Below, one piece after another: positions 2,850 to 38,158 of a DNA stretch of 64,000 bases; position 1 is the first letter of the stretch, and each line of letters starts with the position of its first letter. The DNA comes from Pseudogemmobacter hezensis (GTDB lineage Bacteria > Pseudomonadota > Alphaproteobacteria > Rhodobacterales > Rhodobacteraceae). The stretch is from contig NZ_JABJXT010000011.1 in the NCBI RefSeq assembly GCF_013155295.1, positions 62,001-126,000 of the forward strand, written 5' to 3'. The notes under the pieces were generated by a model. The model saw nothing but the letters and a program-made list of their open reading frames with translations. It was not told where the DNA came from and ran no database searches. The position numbers were made by a program, and so were the translations under genes.

Positions 2850-3872
2850 TTATGTCTGGCGCATTTCAGCCACGGATGATCGTTTGCGACTATGGGCAAG
2901 AAGCATCTCTGAAATTTTTCCCAGCGGCAGGCTTTCGACCGCCGCGCCCAGTTCCGCCGCCGCACGCGGCATTCCGTATACTGTAGAACTGGCCTCATCC
3001 TGAGCAAAGGTCATTGCACCGGCACGGCGCAACTCCAGCAAACCAGCCGCGCCATCCCGCCCCATGCCGGTCAGCAAAACGGCGGTGACTGCTGGCGCGA
3101 AAGAAACCGCTGAACGAAACAGCATGTCGACAGAAGGGGTATGGCCTGAAACAGGCGGCCCAAAACTGAGATCGCAAAGGACCGGCTTTCCCGGCGTAAG
3201 CGTCAGATGACCCGGGCAACCGGCGCCAACGACAACAGTTCCCGGAAGCATCTTCACCCCGCTTGCCGCAGGCTGCACCTTTGCCGCGCAGCAGCGCGCG
3301 AACAGGCGGACCAGACTGTCGGAAAAGCCAGCCCCCGTATGCTGGACGATTGCACAGGGCGGACAATCGGCAGGAAAAGTTGAAAGAATCGTTAATAGCG
3401 CATCGATTCCACCAGTCGATGCGCCCATCAGGATCAGTTTTTCCGGGGCAAATCCTCCGGTCTGGGTTGGCCGGGGCATTGATGGATATCGGCGTAACTC
3501 AGTGGGCGTTGCAACAGGTTTTGGTTTGGCTGCGGTTTGTAACCAGCGTTGCAATTCATCCGGGCCATCCGCCCGCCTTGCCGCAGAAGCGAGGTCCATC
3601 ACGACCTCACCTGGAAGGCTTTCCGGGATTTCAAGCCAGGCCGTCTGTGACACGCGAAACAGGGACAGGAGGCCTTCAAACTCTGGCATCCGTGCAAGTT
3701 CTTTGCCGTTCAACGCCACGGCAGGCTCGGCGCGCTCACTGAGAATATAGGCAGTTGAAAGGTCTGATGCCACCCCGCTGATGTCGTAGTTTTTCAACGA
3801 GGAAATTCGACGGCTAAGGCGAGCCGCTGTTATTGCCCGTGCCGTCACGATGATAACCTTACTGGTGTTCAT
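2850..3872 (-). CDS. cheB: CheB-type protein-glutamate methylesterase with a degenerate receiver domain
   Basis: CheB removes methyl groups (and deamidates) chemoreceptors during adaptation. Residues ~143-330 are a complete methylesterase domain with the catalytic triad: Ser152 in GASTGG, His178 in IVQHTGAGFS and Asp273 in TGMGRDGAAG. Residues 1-~90 have the spacing of a receiver domain (KVIIVTA strand, then PAVALNG), but the acidic pair is absent and the phospho-acceptor position appears to be Asn55. Activation by CheA phosphorylation is therefore unlikely (inference). I chose the ATG at 3872, with GGGGAA upstream, because it starts directly at the receiver-like strand; a longer in-frame start at 3953 adds an uncharacteristic leader. 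It is the last gene of the che operon, 141 bases after the unknown gene. Confidence 0.88.
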   Translation of the reverse strand: MNTSKVIIVTARAITAARLSRRISSLKNYDISGVASDLSTAYILSERAEPAVALNGKELARMPEFEGLLSLFRVSQTAWLEIPESLPGEVVMDLASAARRADGPDELQRWLQTAAKPKPVATPTELRRYPSMPRPTQTGGFAPEKLILMGASTGGIDALLTILSTFPADCPPCAIVQHTGAGFSDSLVRLFARCCAAKVQPAASGVKMLPGTVVVGAGCPGHLTLTPGKPVLCDLSFGPPVSGHTPSVDMLFRSAVSFAPAVTAVLLTGMGRDGAAGLLELRRAGAMTFAQDEASSTVYGMPRAAAELGAAVESLPLGKISEMLLAHSRKRSSVAEMRQT

Positions 3873-4013
3873 CCGTTCCCCGCATGACTGCATCGAAAGA
3901 CGTAATGCGGCTGAAGCCGAGCATGAATGGCCGAAACGGACGCTCCAGGGCATTGTGGATGATCATCTTTTATGTCTGCCCCTTTCTTTGCTGCGCTGGA
4001 TTGGCCAGGACGT

Positions 4014-4442
4014 TCAAAACAAAATATCCCGGATTGCGCCCTTCTGGATTTCCGGCTCGTTTATGCCAAAGAGGGCTCGAATCTCTGCCAATTTTGCGCT
4101 TCTTCCCAGGATTGTTGCCTCAATGGGAGAGGCGTGATCGATTAAGGAATCGGCAAGCTGCCGCGCCAGAGATTGCAAGTCCTGAAGGCGTTGCAGAACA
4201 CGGCCAATTTCCTGCAATCCAAGCTGTGTCTTCGTATTGTCCCTAATCGGCATCGTTATTAGGCTTTGAGGTTCGTTTTCAATTGAAGATACTATTTCCG
4301 CCATAAGTGTGTGTTCGATCACAGAAAGAATGGAATGAGTTTCACCAATTCCTTTTTCCAGCGCATTCAGTATTATTGACAAGCTCAATTTGTCTTTAAA
4401 ACCATAGAGGCTATTGTCTGAATCTTTCGATTTTCCTGTCAT
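4014..4442 (-). CDS. Unknown small helical protein of the chemotaxis operon
   Basis: I do not recognise this 142-residue protein. Its start overlaps the stop of the preceding cheY by four bases, so it is translated as part of the che operon. It is predominantly helical with no signal peptide or membrane segment. A long amphipathic helix (about residues 72-103) contains QRLQDLQSLARQ, and the protein ends in a hydrophobic/acidic tail, AIRDILF. The layout faintly recalls CheZ-like CheY phosphatases (helical hairpin with QDL, plus a C-terminal CheY-binding peptide), but the CheZ DxxxQ signature is not clearly present. Base composition is visibly AT-richer than the rest of the window. A CheY-directed accessory role is only a position-based guess. 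Confidence 0.75.
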   Translation of the reverse strand: MTGKSKDSDNSLYGFKDKLSLSIILNALEKGIGETHSILSVIEHTLMAEIVSSIENEPQSLITMPIRDNTKTQLGLQEIGRVLQRLQDLQSLARQLADSLIDHASPIEATILGRSAKLAEIRALFGINEPEIQKGAIRDILF

Positions 4443-4825
4443 AGCGGGCCGACGACGCGTTCGATCGCTGTTTTTACGGTTGCTGGCGTAAATGGTTTGC
4501 GGATCAGGTTATTCAGGCCTAGCTCCTGGCCTCGTTTCAGAACCTCTGGCGAGGGTGTTCCAGTTATCAGGATAAAACCAATTTTCTGCGTGGCTGTATT
4601 TCTACGTAAAGCAGCCAGAAGATCCAGGCCTGAAAGCCCTGGCATATTCATGTCGGAGATCACCAGGTGAACCGGGCTGCTGGCGAGCTTTTCAAGGACA
4701 ACACCGCTGTCTGACTCAGTGACAAAATGCTTTATCCCGATTTCTTCGAGTGATTGGGCGATCAGTGCACGGCTGACCGACATGTCATCGACCACCATCA
4801 CACGCAGGTTGTCTTTTAGACTCAT
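4439..4825 (-). CDS. cheY: Single-domain response regulator, CheY-like (second copy in operon)
   Basis: This 128-residue protein is a bare receiver domain. It has the acidic pair Asp13-Asp14 (VVDD), the phospho-acceptor Asp58 (LVISDMNMP), the conserved Thr in ILITGT and Lys110 (IRKPF). Such proteins carry the signal from CheA to the flagellar motor or act as phosphate sinks. It lies 13 bases after cheR and overlaps the unknown gene behind it. It differs clearly in sequence from the CheY encoded just upstream of cheA, so the operon supplies two non-identical receivers. Which of them binds the motor cannot be read from the sequence. The start is preceded by AAAGGG at suitable spacing. Confidence 0.9.
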   Translation of the reverse strand: MSLKDNLRVMVVDDMSVSRALIAQSLEEIGIKHFVTESDSGVVLEKLASSPVHLVISDMNMPGLSGLDLLAALRRNTATQKIGFILITGTPSPEVLKRGQELGLNNLIRKPFTPATVKTAIERVVGPL

Positions 4826-4838
4826 ATTGGTAACCCTT

Positions 4839-5711
4839 TTAGTTGGCGATCCGCCGGTATGAGGTTATTCCGGCGCTGACCAGATCTTTGACGGCCGGAC
4901 CTGAAACGCGCTCGGAGTGTCCGATAAAAAGCATCCCGCCAGGACGCAGAAGTTGAGAGAACCTGCTCCAGAGGCGGGCCTGTGTGGGTTTGTCGAAGTA
5001 AATCGCCACATTGCGACAAAAAATTGCGTCAAATGGCCCCTTCATAGGCCAGTGACCAACAAGATTTAGTTCAGCAAAGCGGATCATTTCGGTAACTTTT
5101 TGATCGATGTTGAATTTATTATCTGCATCCTGTCTCACAAAATTTGACAGAAGATGTTTCGGGATGGATCGGCGTTCGTCATCCGGATACTTTGCTGTTC
5201 GTGCCTTGATGATAATTGAGGAATCAATATCTGTTGCGAGAATGCGAATGTTCAGCCGGGATGCTTCCGGCAATAATTCCAGGATTTTCATCGCGATCGA
5301 GCAGGGCTCCTGGCCTGCCGAGCAGCCTGCCGACCAAATTCGCAGCCGTTGCCCCGATCTGAGACGCGCGAGATTCGGCTTCAGAAGCATTTCGGCAAGC
5401 AGATCGAAGTGATGCGATTCCCGAAAAAAACTGGTCACATTGGTGGTCAGCGCACTGATCAATGCCTCACGTTCCGGCGTATTCGGATCAGCCTCTATTC
5501 GTGACAGGAAGCTAGCTATATCCGGGCACCCGGTTTCCTGCAGCAGACGCAACAGACGGGTATGCACCACCTGCTTTTTATTATCCTGCAGAAAGAGCCC
5601 AAACTCGCGATGGGCGATCTCTGCCAATCTGCGGAAGTCGACATCACTGAATGGTGGCGCATGGGGCAGACTGTCAGCTTTGGCAGAGCGGGGGCGCACA
5701 GTCAGGGTCAT
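4839..5711 (-). CDS. cheR: Chemoreceptor glutamate methyltransferase CheR
   Basis: CheR transfers methyl groups from S-adenosylmethionine to glutamates on chemoreceptors, opposing CheB. The 290-residue product has the N-terminal helical domain (around FRRLAEIAHREFGLF) followed by the Rossmann methyltransferase domain. The cofactor motif RIWSAGCSAGQEPCS, the ILATDID strand and the FDAIFCRNVAIYFD segment are all typical. I chose the ATG at 5711 because it overlaps the cheW stop as ATGA, the pattern of other junctions in this operon; an in-frame ATG seven codons upstream is possible. The region has lower GC than the flanking operons. No pentapeptide-binding receptor is encoded in the window. Confidence 0.92.
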   Translation of the reverse strand: MTLTVRPRSAKADSLPHAPPFSDVDFRRLAEIAHREFGLFLQDNKKQVVHTRLLRLLQETGCPDIASFLSRIEADPNTPEREALISALTTNVTSFFRESHHFDLLAEMLLKPNLARLRSGQRLRIWSAGCSAGQEPCSIAMKILELLPEASRLNIRILATDIDSSIIIKARTAKYPDDERRSIPKHLLSNFVRQDADNKFNIDQKVTEMIRFAELNLVGHWPMKGPFDAIFCRNVAIYFDKPTQARLWSRFSQLLRPGGMLFIGHSERVSGPAVKDLVSAGITSYRRIAN

Positions 5712-6172
5712 GCTGCCTGCTTTGCCTTGCATTGGATTACGGCCTCCAGGTCGATAACCCGCGTCATGCCCTCTTCCATCTGGATGATCCCTGTGATTGA
5801 CGCGCGTGTGTTTTCAGAGCGAATGTCCGGCGTTTCCTGGATCTGTGATTTCGCCACCGACAAAATTTCCGAAACAGCCTCGACCAAAAGTCCAACGGTC
5901 TGGCTGCCGATGGTCGCAACTACGACGACATTGCGTGGATTGTCGGTTGTTGGCCCCGGCCCGAAGCGGGCCGAAAGGTCGTAAATCGGAATGACAGAAC
6001 CGCGCAGGTTCATCACGCCGAGGACTTCTTTTGGGGCATGTGGCAGCGGGGTTACCGTGCTCCATCTGCGGATTTCACGGACATGGGAAATATCCAGTGA
6101 AAAGCTCTGTGCACCGGCAAAAAATGTCACAAACTCTGCATCTTGTCTGGCTGCGGCGTCAGTGGATGGCAT
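5708..6172 (-). CDS. cheW: Chemotaxis coupling protein CheW
   Basis: CheW is the SH3-like adaptor that links chemoreceptors to CheA at the inner membrane. The 154-residue protein carries the family landmarks in order: VTFFAGAQSFSLDISHVREI, then LPHAPKEVLGVMNLRGSVIPIYDL and a C-terminal VIDLEAV strand. It has normal CheW length with no extra domain. Its start lies 14 bases inside the end of the frame encoding the CheA P5 domain and its stop overlaps cheR, consistent with translational coupling along the operon. It is the only true CheW here: the other CheW-like frame just upstream is better read as part of CheA. Confidence 0.92.
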   Translation of the reverse strand: MPSTDAAARQDAEFVTFFAGAQSFSLDISHVREIRRWSTVTPLPHAPKEVLGVMNLRGSVIPIYDLSARFGPGPTTDNPRNVVVVATIGSQTVGLLVEAVSEILSVAKSQIQETPDIRSENTRASITGIIQMEEGMTRVIDLEAVIQCKAKQAA

Positions 6173-6776
6173 GGGGCGCTCCGGGGTTGGGGGGCGAGGT
6201 CATAATTTTCTGAACCTGCATGGACTGCGCGGCTTGCGCTGATGCGGGTGAACTGTTTTGCGCAATGGCAGCTGTTCGAACGCCGTTGAAACCGTAAAGG
6301 CTGGAGGTCAGCGCCTCGGTGTCCAGGATCAGGGCGATCTGCCCATCGCCCAGCACAGTTGCCGCAGAGACGCCGGGAATTGCACCATAGTTGGAATCCA
6401 GCCCTTTGATCACCACTTGCCGCTGGTCGAGCACTGCATCAACGATCAGGGCGCAATGGGTCTGCGCATCGGTTTCAACCAGCAAAGCCAAAGGAGAGTG
6501 TGCGGGGTCGCGGCTGCCAAAGCCAAGGCATTGCGCAACGTCGATCATTGGCAGAAAGCGTCCTCTGATCGCCAGAAGCCGGTCATTCGTGCCGATTAGG
6601 TGCAGGTCAGAGGGGGCTGGCCTGATTGTCTCAATGACGGATGAAATGGGGATCACCATGGTCTGGCCTGCTACAGAGATGACCATGCCGTCCATCACGG
6701 CGAGGGTGAGGGGGCAGGGAGATGGTGAACTCTGACCCCTGGCCCAGGGTAGAACTGATCGCGATGCGTCCACCAA
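6159..6776 (-). CDS. cheA: CheW-like P5 domain of CheA, displaced into another frame
   Basis: This frame encodes the P5 regulatory domain expected at the end of CheA, not an independent CheW. Its recognisable part begins at CPLTLAVMDGMVISVAGQ, the classic junction that follows the CheA kinase-domain ending GQGSEFTISLP. The homologous part therefore starts near 6713; the ~20 codons before it are only the out-of-frame reading of cheA DNA. Downstream it has VIPISSVIETIRP and LAIRGRFLPMIDV, the receptor/CheW-binding fold, then an unusual ~35-residue Ser/Ala/Gln tail. It overlaps cheW by 14 bases. If the frameshift is real, this domain would be made only by slippage or from an internal start. If it is a sequencing error, the product is one normal CheA of about 820 residues. 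Confidence 0.8.
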   Translation of the reverse strand: MVDASRSVLPWARGQSSPSPCPLTLAVMDGMVISVAGQTMVIPISSVIETIRPAPSDLHLIGTNDRLLAIRGRFLPMIDVAQCLGFGSRDPAHSPLALLVETDAQTHCALIVDAVLDQRQVVIKGLDSNYGAIPGVSAATVLGDGQIALILDTEALTSSLYGFNGVRTAAIAQNSSPASAQAAQSMQVQKIMTSPPNPGAPHAIH

Positions 6777-8619
6777 GCGCTGTTACCGCATTCTTGACCA
6801 CGTCGAGGCCGACGCCGCGACCGGAGAGGTTCGATACTTTATCGGCGGTAGAAAAACCAGGCAGAAACAGTAAGTTATCTATTTCGGCATCGCTTAGCTC
6901 TGCCCCTTCGGTGACGAGGCCACGGGATATCGCCTTTGCAAGCACCTTGTCCCTGTCGAGGCCGCCGCCATCATCGCTGATGGTGATGATCACGCTGCCA
7001 GAGCGATGAGCGGCTGACAGGCGGATTGTGCCCTCGGGGTCTTTTCCCGCAAGTGCACGGGCTGCGCTGTTTTCCAGGCCATGGTCGACTGCATTGCGGA
7101 TCATATGGGTTAACGGGTCGGCGAGCCGCTCGACCACTGTTTTGTCAACTTCGGTTGTGTCACCGACTGTGACCAGTCTTGCGGGTTTTCCGGTGGCCTC
7201 AGATGCCTCACGAACGATGCGGGACATGCGCTGAAAGAGCGGCTTCACCGGCTGCGCACGGATCGCCATCACCGCCTCCTGGAGGTCGCGCGCCAGCAGG
7301 CGGTAGTCCTCGGTATGGCTGATAATCTCTGTTTCGGCGGGCAGCGACAGGTCGGTCACGCTTTGCTCGATCATCGCCTGGTTGATGATAAGTTCGCCCA
7401 CGGCGTTGATCAGACGATCGACCCGTTCCAGATCCACCCGCAGCGTGGGTTTTGGGCCGCGGTTATCGCTTTCATCTTCGGCTTTTGACGGGCGTTTGCG
7501 TGGCGCAAGAGGCTGTGGCGTATCGGCGGTCTGGCTGTCTGAGACACCGACACCGGCCGTGGCAGCCCCGAGCTCCGCCATGACTGCTGCGGCACTTGTT
7601 TCAAGCCCTTCGGAGTGGATCGGCATTTGGGGGGGCGGGGGCGCCGCATCAGGGTTGCTGAGCACTGATGGGCCGGCTTCGATTACTCTGGGCGAGTTTT
7701 GGGGCGCGATTTCCAGGTTGCAGAGGCCACGAACAAATTCAAAATGCGCGTCGATTTCAGCATGGCTGACAGATGACGGAAGGTGAACTTCCCAGCCTAG
7801 CCAGGGCGATTCGGGCGAATAGCTGTCGGGTTTGGGGCAACGGCTGAGATCTGGCGTAATCCGGGATGCGCCAAGCGCTTCAAGGCCGCAAAGCAAAGGG
7901 AATGGATCATGGCCGTTGGTATATAGCGAGGCCCAGGGACGAAAATGGATGATCCAGCCCTGTGCAGGGGCCTCATCTTCGGTGGTGGCAGGCACGGATC
8001 CTGGCGTGGCAGGGCTGAGGCCGTCAGCCGATGCCTCGCCCGGCGATGCTGTTTCTTCAAACCCTGTGCCGAACTCTGTTGTCCTATCCGGATCAGCCCC
8101 ATCAGAGATATGCGGTGTGGATGAGGGCGGCCCGGCCCCTGGCGCACCTGGGTCGGTAAACTCTGCCGAAAGGCCGAAGTCCAGGGTGATGGCGCTGAAA
8201 CCGAAATCGGCGTCTTCGGCGGGGTCCTCAAAACCGGCATCCCCGAGGCAGGCGTCGAGATTGGCCAGAAAACCTGCGGTGATGTCGTCGTCTATGCTGC
8301 GCTCTTCATGGGCAGCCTCGACCAGATCGGCCAGGTGATCGGCCGAGCGCAAAAGGACGTGCATCGCCTCATCGGTCAGCTCCATCCGGTCAGAGCGGAT
8401 CTCATCAAGCACTGTTTCAAACCGATGGGCAAAGGCCACGAGATCATCCAGCGCGAAGGCCCCGGCACCACCTTTGATGGAATGCACCGCCCGGAACACC
8501 GCATTCAGGCATTCACTGTCTGCCTCGCCGCTTTCCATACGGGCAAGGCCCTCGGCCAGGGCCTCAAGCAGATCCTCACATTCCTCGAAAAACGTGTCGC
8601 GGATGGACTGCATGCTCAT
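6631..8619 (-). CDS. cheA: Chemotaxis histidine kinase CheA (P1-P4), frameshifted before P5
   Basis: CheA autophosphorylates and passes phosphate to CheY and CheB. Domains in order are: P1 Hpt (phospho-acceptor His46 in AVHSIKGGAGAF); an acidic linker and a P2-like CheY-binding domain around IIHFRPWASLYTNG; a Pro/Ala-rich linker; P3 dimerisation (RVDRLINAVGELIINQ); and P4 kinase with N box (HMIRNAVDHGLE), G1 (DDGGGLDRDKV), F box (FLPGFSTAD) and G2 (GRGVGLDVVKN). After TISLP the frame departs into PHPRRDGRHGHL, while the expected LTLAVMDGM continues in the neighbouring frame. One extra base in the G run at 6710-6714 (C run on the coding strand) explains this exactly. The start overlaps the cheY stop by four bases. 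Confidence 0.9.
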   Translation of the reverse strand: MSMQSIRDTFFEECEDLLEALAEGLARMESGEADSECLNAVFRAVHSIKGGAGAFALDDLVAFAHRFETVLDEIRSDRMELTDEAMHVLLRSADHLADLVEAAHEERSIDDDITAGFLANLDACLGDAGFEDPAEDADFGFSAITLDFGLSAEFTDPGAPGAGPPSSTPHISDGADPDRTTEFGTGFEETASPGEASADGLSPATPGSVPATTEDEAPAQGWIIHFRPWASLYTNGHDPFPLLCGLEALGASRITPDLSRCPKPDSYSPESPWLGWEVHLPSSVSHAEIDAHFEFVRGLCNLEIAPQNSPRVIEAGPSVLSNPDAAPPPPQMPIHSEGLETSAAAVMAELGAATAGVGVSDSQTADTPQPLAPRKRPSKAEDESDNRGPKPTLRVDLERVDRLINAVGELIINQAMIEQSVTDLSLPAETEIISHTEDYRLLARDLQEAVMAIRAQPVKPLFQRMSRIVREASEATGKPARLVTVGDTTEVDKTVVERLADPLTHMIRNAVDHGLENSAARALAGKDPEGTIRLSAAHRSGSVIITISDDGGGLDRDKVLAKAISRGLVTEGAELSDAEIDNLLFLPGFSTADKVSNLSGRGVGLDVVKNAVTALGGRIAISSTLGQGSEFTISLPPHPRRDGRHGHLCSRPDHGDPHFIRH
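6710..6714 (-). other. Homopolymer run that breaks the cheA frame
   Basis: The plus strand reads five G here (five C in the coding sense). With four, CheA would read TISLPLTLAVMDGM without interruption; with five, it runs out of frame for about 27 codons to a stop at 6631. This is the most economical position for the single-base difference. True mutation, phase-variable tract, ribosomal slippage and sequencing error all remain possible. Confidence 0.75.
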
Positions 8620-9008
8620 GGATGTGCCTTTCCTGAACCGGAATAGCCGGTGACCCGGCGCAGGACTGCGATCAGCTGCAAATCCTCAAAGGGTTTGACC
8701 AGCCAGCCTGTCGCGCCTGCGGCCCTTGCCCGTGCCTTCAGGGCATCGCCACTTTCGGTGCTGAGCACCAGGATCGGCACCCGCGAATTATGGGTGCCTG
8801 AGCGAATCGCTTCGATCACGCCAAAACCATCGAGGCGGGGCATGTTGATATCGGTGATGACCACATCGGGATCGACCTCGGCGAACATGCTGACGCCATC
8901 AGCCCCGTCATTGGCGGTGGCGCAGTCAAAGCCCGCATTTTCCATCGCCTGACGCAAAAGCGTGCGGATGGTCAGGGAATCATCAATGGCCAGGACGCGC
9001 AGGCTCAT
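8616..9008 (-). CDS. cheY: Chemotaxis response regulator CheY
   Basis: The 130-residue product is a single receiver domain: acidic pair Asp9-Asp10 (AIDD), phospho-acceptor Asp53 (VVITDINMP), Ser/Thr switch residue in LVLSTES and Lys105 (LVKPF). It is expected to take phosphate from CheA and relay it to the flagellar switch or compete as a sink. Both ends overlap neighbouring genes by four bases (ATGA junctions with the STAS gene before and cheA after). STAS-cheY-cheA order at the head of the operon is a common alphaproteobacterial arrangement. This copy is more GC-rich than the second cheY near the operon end. Confidence 0.92.
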   Translation of the reverse strand: MSLRVLAIDDSLTIRTLLRQAMENAGFDCATANDGADGVSMFAEVDPDVVITDINMPRLDGFGVIEAIRSGTHNSRVPILVLSTESGDALKARARAAGATGWLVKPFEDLQLIAVLRRVTGYSGSGKAHP

Positions 9009-9409
9009 GTGGAGCGCCCCTCTGACATGGGGGCCGGGGAAGCGGACGGCTCTGGCGCTATGGGCAATGCGTTGATCAGGCCCAGCAGTGTCAGTTGCGC
9101 ACGGTGCAGCGTCGAGACGCCTGAGATCGCAAAGGGGATGCCGCGTTCGCGCCGATCTGCGGCCTCGGTCAGCAACAGTTCGGCCAAAAGCCCGCTGAAC
9201 TGACGCAGCCCTGCGGCATTGACCCTAAGCGCGGTGTCACGGTTGTTGTGGAAAAAGGCCGCGAGCGAGGGATCCGCCAGCGGATCGGCCCGCGATGGCA
9301 GATCCAGCACCACAGTCTGCGCGGGCATTGCGGTCCCGCAGGCCGCCGCGGCAGAAATCGCTGCCTGCTCTGGCAGAGCGGGCGGAATTTGCTGGTTCAG
9401 AGTGGGCAT
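9005..9409 (-). CDS. STAS-like protein heading the chemotaxis operon
   Basis: The 134-residue protein has a STAS-like core (about residues 30-110): an initial strand TVVLDLPSRAD, then VNAAGLRQFSGLLAELLLTEA and a strand FAISGVS followed by a helix. Small STAS proteins often open alphaproteobacterial che operons, but their biochemical role is not settled; there is no obvious phosphorylatable Ser in the canonical DSSG context here. I chose the ATG at 9409 because GAGGT lies about ten bases upstream; longer in-frame starts at 9439 and 9511 lack a good ribosome-binding site. The stop overlaps cheY by four bases. The divergent promoter region (9410-9657) is shared with the taurine aminotransferase gene. 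Confidence 0.7.
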   Translation of the reverse strand: MPTLNQQIPPALPEQAAISAAAACGTAMPAQTVVLDLPSRADPLADPSLAAFFHNNRDTALRVNAAGLRQFSGLLAELLLTEAADRRERGIPFAISGVSTLHRAQLTLLGLINALPIAPEPSASPAPMSEGRST

Positions 9410-9563
9410 CGGCCACTTACCTCGGTTGAAACTTCCCATTCCCAACAGGGATAAGTCTGCGAAACTTAAGGAAAGGTTGTTTCCGCCCCGATTTGCCGGG
9501 AAATCGCGCATTCGCCCGGGGTTTATTCGCTAAAATCCTGATCTTTTTCGCGCGGCCTTTTAA

Positions 9564-36545: not shown

Positions 36546-37121
36546 TTGCGACTGATCCTCGGATCCGCCTCGCCGCGCCGGAAAGAGCTTCTGGCGCAAA
36601 TGGGAATTGTTCCCGACCTGATCTCGCCGCCCGATATCGACGAGGATCCCCGCAAGGGAGAGTTGCCGCGTCCCTATGCGGCGCGGCTGGCGCGTGAAAA
36701 GGCGCTGGCGGTTCAGTCTGATCCCGATGACATCGTTCTTTGCGCCGATACCACGGTGGCGCTTGGCCGCCGGATCCTGGGCAAGCCCCGCGATGCGGCA
36801 GAGGCGGCTGCTTTCCTGGCCCTTCTGGGCGGGCGTCGCCATGAGGTGATAACCGCCGTCGCCCTGCGGCGCGGTGAGCGTATCTGGGCCCGCGAAAGCC
36901 TCTCTGTCGTGAAGATGAAGCGCCTCTCGGATGATGAGATGAACGCCTATCTGGCCAGCAATGAATGGCAGGGCAAGGCGGGCGGCTATGGTATCCAGGG
37001 GCTGGCTGGCGCGTTTTTGCCATGGATATCGGGTAGTTACAGCGGAATTATGGGCTTGCCGGTCGCCGAGACCGCGCAGCTTTTGACGGCCGCAGGCTGG
37101 CCGGTCTGGAGGCAGGCATGA
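36546..37121 (+). CDS. maf: Maf-family nucleotide pyrophosphatase
   Basis: The 191-residue protein is a Maf/HAM1-like NTP pyrophosphatase that removes non-canonical or surplus nucleotides. Family motifs: [14 protein letters not shown] at the N terminus, AREKA, the metal/base pocket [17 protein letters not shown], and [25 protein letters not shown] near the C terminus. The start is a TTG at 36546, the only codon that begins exactly at the conserved N-terminal strand; there is no ATG upstream in frame before the infA stop. The gene begins 12 bases after infA and overlaps the RNase gene by four bases, so it depends on the infA transcript. Confidence 0.9.
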
Positions 37122-38158
37122 AGGGTCGGGTCGTTCTTCTCGATATGATCGACGGGCGCGAGGCGGCGGCTGTGCTGGTTGACGGTCGCCTGGAAGATCT
37201 GGCGATTGATCCGGCAGAGCCGGGTTTCGCGCCGGGCGCGATTTACCGCGCGGTGGCGGATCGGCCTGTCAAAGGGCAGGGCGGGATTTTCGTGAAACTG
37301 CCCGATGGCGGCAGCGGTTTTCTGCGCCAGATTTCGGGCATTGCACCCGGCCAGCGGCTGATCGTCCAGGTCAGCGGCCCGGCCGAGCCTGGCAAGGCGA
37401 TCCCGGTCTCGACGCGGGTTCTGTTCAAATCGCGCTATGCGATTGTCACGCCCGGTGCCCCCGGCCTGAACATTTCGCGCCGGATCCGCGATGAGGAACT
37501 GCGCGAAGAGCTGGACAGTCTTGCAACTGCGGCGATGCAGGGGGCGGCCCCGGATCTGGGGCTGATCCTGCGCTCGGTCTGCCAACAGGCAGAGCCAGAG
37601 GAAATCAGCGAAGACATCGCCCAGCTGCGCGGCCTTTCCGAGGCGGTGCTTGCCGATCTGTCGGGCGGGCCGGAACTCTTGCTGGATGCGCCGGGCGCAC
37701 ATGAGCTGGCCTGGCGCGAATGGGGCGATCCCGCGCCCGATGAGGTGATCGAAGAGCCCGGCTGCTTTGGCGATCATGGCGTGGCCGATGCGCTGGATGA
37801 GCTGCTGGACCCGCGCGTTGGTCTGCCCGGTGGCGGCCATATCTGGATCGAGCCGACGCGGGCGCTGGTGGCGGTCGATGTGAACACCGGCCCGGATACC
37901 TCGCCTGCGGCTGCGCTGAAGATCAATATCGCCGCGGCCCGCGAGCTGCCGCGCCAGCTGGCCCTGCGTGGCCTTGGCGGTCAGGTCGTAATCGACTTTG
38001 CGCCGATGCCGAAACGCGACCGCAATATCCTGGAGCAGGTGATCCGCGCCGCCTTCAAAACCGGCGGCGAGACAACCCTTGCCGGCTGGAGCGGGCTGGG
38101 CCTCTTCGAGCTGACCCGGCGGCGCGAACGTCTGCCGCTAAGCGAGCTCTGGTCGTGA
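37118..38158 (+). CDS. Short ribonuclease E/G-family protein
   Basis: The 346-residue protein has the S1-like segment ([23 protein letters not shown]), a linker with [21 protein letters not shown], and the DNase I-like catalytic part with both metal-binding aspartates ([10 protein letters not shown] and [12 protein letters not shown]). It lacks the CPxCxGxG zinc-link and the C-terminal domain of full RNase E/G, and the RNase H-like insertion is reduced, so it is much shorter than RNase G (~490). Related short forms occur in this gene cluster in other Rhodobacterales (from memory). It overlaps maf before and yacG after by four bases each. Endonucleolytic activity on RNA is plausible but unproven for such minimal forms. 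Confidence 0.83.

Follow-up and report, generated by a model that had tools for sequence, protein, structure and literature searches.

A one-base frame change at the P4/P5 border of the only detected cheA gene in the Pseudogemmobacter hezensis assembly

In the established division of roles among the domains of CheA, P5 couples the kinase to CheW and the receptors. This domain (the CheW domain) was present in 100% of the CheA sequences surveyed, according to the available part of PMC10782961, so that on this evidence a CheA lacking P5 corresponds to no known natural architecture. Loss of related functions by frameshift is on record for natural isolates of Listeria monocytogenes, where the accessible text of PMC2532693 describes a frameshifted flaR and the inactivation of motility genes. 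The canonical CheA of Rhodobacterales has the order P1-P3-P4-P5, and its gene stands in chemotaxis clusters alongside cheY, cheW, cheR, cheY and cheB. The locus described here, in a 64,000-nucleotide stretch of the P. hezensis genome (the window), has the same companions, and its cheA encodes the same four core domains in the same order; it departs from the canonical arrangement in that P5, in the assembly, is in a different frame from P1-P4.

The frame break in cheA

The 662-aa ORF 8619-6631 gives Pfam matches in a single frame to Hpt (E = 5.5e-16), H-kinase_dim (E = 7.3e-16) and HATPase_c (E = 3.7e-18), so that the P1, P3 and P4 domains of a CheA are all present, and no Pfam hit to P2 was obtained in cheA. 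It ends in GQGSEFTISLP followed by 26 unrelated residues, just as the first-pass annotation had read it, namely as a P1-P4 kinase running into nonsense up to 6631. In the overlapping 205-aa ORF 6776-6159 Pfam matches a CheW domain (E = 1.4e-25). This ORF also holds LTLAVMDGMVISVAG, the sequence with which P5 is expected to begin; P5 is thus encoded not within the same protein as the kinase but directly downstream in another frame. When the single 815-aa CheA of a sibling species was aligned by tblastn, its residues 1-627 matched in one frame at 67% identity and residues 627-815 in the next at 73%, the switch falling at 6712/6713. The break therefore sits exactly at the P4/P5 border, where the plus strand has five G at 6710-6714 (five C at 6714-6710 of the minus strand), and the earlier claim of a split between P4 and P5 holds, coordinates included. 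That annotation was also right that the frame from 6776 continues into P5, but not in treating 6776 as its start: the TTG there is merely the first start-type codon of the P5 frame and is not credible as a gene start. From these comparisons we take the gene to be a cheA ortholog, the predicted product of which is an incomplete CheA.

A codon-usage Viterbi model, serving as a homology-free frameshift finder, was run over 447,013 bases and recovered 184 of 300 simulated indels. It placed a switch at 6714 with a score gain of 2.0, one of 13 candidates in the bases scanned; under a stricter penalty this switch was lost and a single candidate remained, which is not in cheA. Another candidate, on the plus strand of the window at 37084, coincides with the overlap of ORFs 36546-37121 and 37118-38158 and was taken as a false positive, and five of the 13 weak candidates cluster at one contig end (G000:C3:146001-156921, L134), which is perhaps decayed mobile DNA. 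The model is too weak as a frameshift finder and by itself supports the cheA break weakly; what establishes the break in the sequence is homology.

We compared the border with that of relatives. Among 13 genomes searched as siblings, own genome included, 12 gave a CheA match; without the own genome CheA was found in 11 of 12, in an unbroken frame of 734-886 codons as against 684 here, the one sibling with no match in this search being G008. With P4 and P5 as separate queries, both domains fell in the same frame at all 91 relative loci (L031-L121), or 89 distinct ones, as L031/L118 and L077/L121 each appear to be one locus under two ids. The proline codon concerned is covered by a run of two C at 71 of these loci, three at five, four at 12 and five at three. 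At the border the run is four C long in each of the four nearest siblings, and the three relative loci with five C are all in frame. A further 20 family loci, some of which may belong to genomes already included under another name, were picked for short or near frames from loci matched in 142 of 295 genomes, a set with one genome per species. In 19 of them the two domains are in one frame. The exception, L194 (G208:C4:35000-40000), is broken ∼30 codons before the border and comes from a genome that is 64% complete. An out-of-frame arrangement at the border itself was thus found in none of the 91 loci and none of the 20, and relatives that naturally encode P1-P4 and P5 as separate proteins, which the first-pass annotation had named as a refutation, did not turn up. 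One CheA relative, L193 (G229:C2:386648-387385), has one TAG stop counted in its open frame, with P4 and P5 in one frame.

The P5 sequence itself bears on the age of the lesion. For the P5 core, the mean distance to seven outgroups is 0.206 for the window compared with 0.202-0.208 for four siblings, and the ratio of window to siblings comes to 1.06 for P1, 1.09 for P3-P4, 1.04 for CheW and 1.00 for P5. Measured against the nearest four siblings, pN/pS is 0.254-0.260 for P5 taken as a whole, higher than for P3-P4 (0.072-0.094). Because the tail of P5 is variable, the rate test was redone with outgroups on the first 136 residues, over which the window lineage is not faster. Given that P5 has not drifted, the break is either recent or absent from the DNA. 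Intact orthologs in relatives, a single lesion and little decay are together the features of a recent pseudogene, and all three are found here.

The cluster and the chemotaxis gene set

The genes of the cluster follow one another on the minus strand in the order STAS-like, cheY, cheA, cheW, cheR, cheY, a small ORF and cheB (Table 1). CheY, CheW, CheR, the second CheY and CheB are each in one frame against all six siblings listed. The two less conserved members are the STAS-like gene, with 37-40% identity to siblings, and the 4014-4442 protein, which gave no Pfam hit at E values up to 5 and matches four of 11 sibling loci over partial length with 26-45% identity, far below its neighbours.

Table 1. 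Features of the chemotaxis cluster (positions in the window)
Feature	Position	Strand	Evidence
cheB methylesterase; first 26 residues of the ORF unmatched in siblings	2850..3953	-	Pfam, sibling alignment
Small 142-aa protein, poorly conserved	4014..4442	-	sibling alignment, Pfam
cheY-type response regulator	4439..4825	-	91-95% identity to five siblings listed, 87% to the sixth
cheR, one frame against 6/6 siblings listed	4839..5732	-	Pfam, sibling alignment
cheW, overlaps 3' end of P5 frame	5708..6172	-	Pfam, sibling alignment
cheA 3' part: P5 (CheW-like) and variable tail, other frame (mechanical ORF 6159-6776)	6159..6713	-	ORF, Pfam, tblastn
cheA 5' part: P1 (Hpt), linker, P3 dimerization, P4 kinase, final 26 unrelated residues	6631..8619	-	ORF, Pfam
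Five-C run, four C in the four nearest sibling species; site of frame change	6710..6714	-	sibling comparison, tblastn
cheY-type response regulator upstream of cheA	8616..9008	-	Pfam, sibling alignment
STAS-like protein, head of cluster	9005..9511	-	below Pfam cut-off

Searches of the genome with PF02895 and PF00015 found one CheA only and one receptor only, hence no spare copy, and the two CheW domains found are those of this P5 and this CheW. FlhA has an open frame, and none of the 23 reference ORFs with a match on the flagellar contig C24 showed a frame split, though some of these ORFs are probably spurious. In the sibling G008 (98% complete) FlhA is present, and CheA and the chemoreceptor domain were not found. 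Either this sibling has naturally lost chemotaxis while keeping its flagellar genes, or its assembly has a gap; chemotaxis may thus have been lost within the genus.

Reliability of the assembly

The genome comprises 4,601,821 bases in 64 contigs, with a G+C content of 62.5% over 1,005,211 sampled bases. The available part of PMC9044078 describes an assembly of P. hezensis D13-10-4-6 made from NovaSeq reads by merging three assemblies and closing gaps; if this paper is the source, small indel errors are possible in such a merged, gap-filled sequence.

We screened 459 reference ORFs, from 620,000 bases of the sibling G012, against 605,211 bases of the genome. Of these, 133 with 45,538 residues in all, spurious ones among them, passed the rule on identity and coverage, and five were flagged as lying in more than one frame. 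The only clean one-base split accepted among the 133 is cheA, which suggests that such errors are uncommon in this assembly. A second flag, R2_71846, which from the look of its sequence we take to be mutY-like, is broken up by 106 G followed by 10 N (L177:19112-19227; G000:C12:159112-159227). Poly-G runs are an artefact of a kind seen with two-colour short-read data, and this interruption is plainly an artefact of assembly. The other three flags were judged to be faults of the reference ORFs: R1_32010, presumably an exopolyphosphatase gene, is over-extended upstream in the reference; in R2_140489, a receptor gene, the receptor part (residues 289-922) is in one frame with no stop and the upstream part has five stops; and R2_96675 was judged by look to be spurious antisense. 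In-frame stops occur in 13 matched pieces, three belonging to flagged ORFs and ten to others. In six of these ten the stop lies at most 37 residues from an end. In the remaining four it is further in, and each of these ORFs faces a long open opposite strand; we judge the four, though this is unproven, to be spurious antisense. Clean splits are therefore rare in the part of the assembly that was compared, yet the assembly is not flawless. The window itself is free of N, and none of its single-base runs reaches a length of nine.

Explanations and comparison with known systems

The account we favour, with somewhat more confidence than doubt, is that a recent one-base change in the length of a short C run inactivates the only detected cheA. 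The cell would then make a P1-P3-P4 kinase with a foreign tail of 26 residues and without P5. Docking of such a kinase to CheW and the receptor would fail, and with it chemotaxis. Translation would stop at 6631, ∼460 bases before the start of cheW (6172), and because the rest of cheA would go untranslated in its own frame before cheW is reached, polarity might lower the expression of cheW and the later genes. Leaky +1 slippage on the C run, an idea that draws on the behaviour of tRNA-Pro, could leave a trace of full-length CheA.

An error of assembly or consensus, with an unbroken gene and an ordinary CheA beneath it, is a serious though somewhat less probable explanation. An undecayed P5 and a pathway otherwise intact where it was tested are also what such an error would leave. 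Short-read chemistry seldom miscounts a run of five bases, which counts against an error, as do the lack of any N or run of at least nine bases in the window and the standing of cheA as the only accepted clean split in the screen. The artefact in the mutY-like gene, the break elsewhere in the cheA of L194, which shows that such breaks occur in assemblies, and the merged, gap-filled short-read assembly described by the probable source paper (PMC9044078, in its available part) speak for it. A recent ordinary loss-of-function frameshift, with an assembly slip as its main rival, is the most likely explanation overall, and no finding points to a novel type of genetic switch. Of the options raised in the first-pass annotation, an inactivating mutation and a sequencing error are thus the ones retained, and the evidence does not support a phase-variable homopolymer or programmed slippage.

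Phase variation, by which gain or loss of a C would toggle chemotaxis, is very unlikely. The change is indeed one of run length in a C tract, and a C5/C6 difference between strains is reported for a meningococcal gene in the accessible part of PMC5084427. Against this, six bases is the shortest tract known to switch and frequent indels in shorter ones are held to be unlikely, as far as the available text of PMC2831843 goes; at five bases, against four in the nearest siblings, the run falls below every tract length that this survey names. The preponderance of two-C runs among the relative loci (71 of 91) further indicates that no long tract is kept at the site. Nor is the run unusual: G/C runs of exactly five bases occur 103 times in the window and longer ones 30 times, and the longest in cheA is a C7 at 7635 inside the open frame, with a C6 at 6194 likewise inside the frame in use there. 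The five-C run stands out by its effect alone. Programmed or leaky +1 frameshifting, giving CheA forms with and without P5, is less probable again. The zero-frame CCC CCU would, by sequence reasoning from known tRNA behaviour, allow a proline tRNA to slip forward with full re-pairing, but neither this motif nor an out-of-frame arrangement is conserved. Conservation is what one would expect of programmed frameshifting, and the border is in one frame at every one of the 91 loci and at 19 of the 20 further ones, the exception breaking ∼30 codons earlier. We give just as little weight to a true split system, with P5 made from a start of its own and acting in trans. A split CheA does exist within the Rhodobacterales, in CheA3/CheA4 of Cereibacter sphaeroides, but there it is P1 (Hpt) and not P5 that is separated from the kinase, and every CheA surveyed has a CheW domain (both from the available part of PMC10782961). 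No compared relative is divided at the P4/P5 border, and the P5 frame of P. hezensis offers no start other than the TTG at 6776 and codons further inside, where inspection by eye showed no ribosome-binding site. There is also only a slight chance that the C run acts as a leaky slip or low-rate contingency site setting what share of the cells, or of the CheA molecules, has a receptor-coupled kinase; if it did, it would be an adjustable chemotaxis switch in this species.

If the favoured loss-of-function frameshift is real, P. hezensis would be one more flagellated bacterium to lose chemotaxis through a single-base change in its only CheA, a finding of an ordinary kind that opens no new mechanism; we found no report of this cheA case in the literature, which is not proof that none exists. 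It might also bear on the conflicting statements about the type strain, which PMC9044078, as available, calls motile in its abstract and non-motile where it describes the species. The conflict is itself neutral on a CheA defect, since this would affect taxis and not swimming as such. The genome could also be misread as encoding an unusual P5-less CheA.

Among described systems, the locus resembles CheA3/CheA4 of Cereibacter sphaeroides in that CheA functions are spread over two polypeptides; in that pair, however, P1 is apart from the kinase and each protein has its own P5, whereas the frameshift here cuts the kinase from P5 (PMC10782961, available part). The likeness to flaR of Listeria monocytogenes is that of an isolate-specific frameshift in a motility-related gene (PMC2532693, accessible text), the difference being that the gene here is cheA and that the frameshift is known from one genome.
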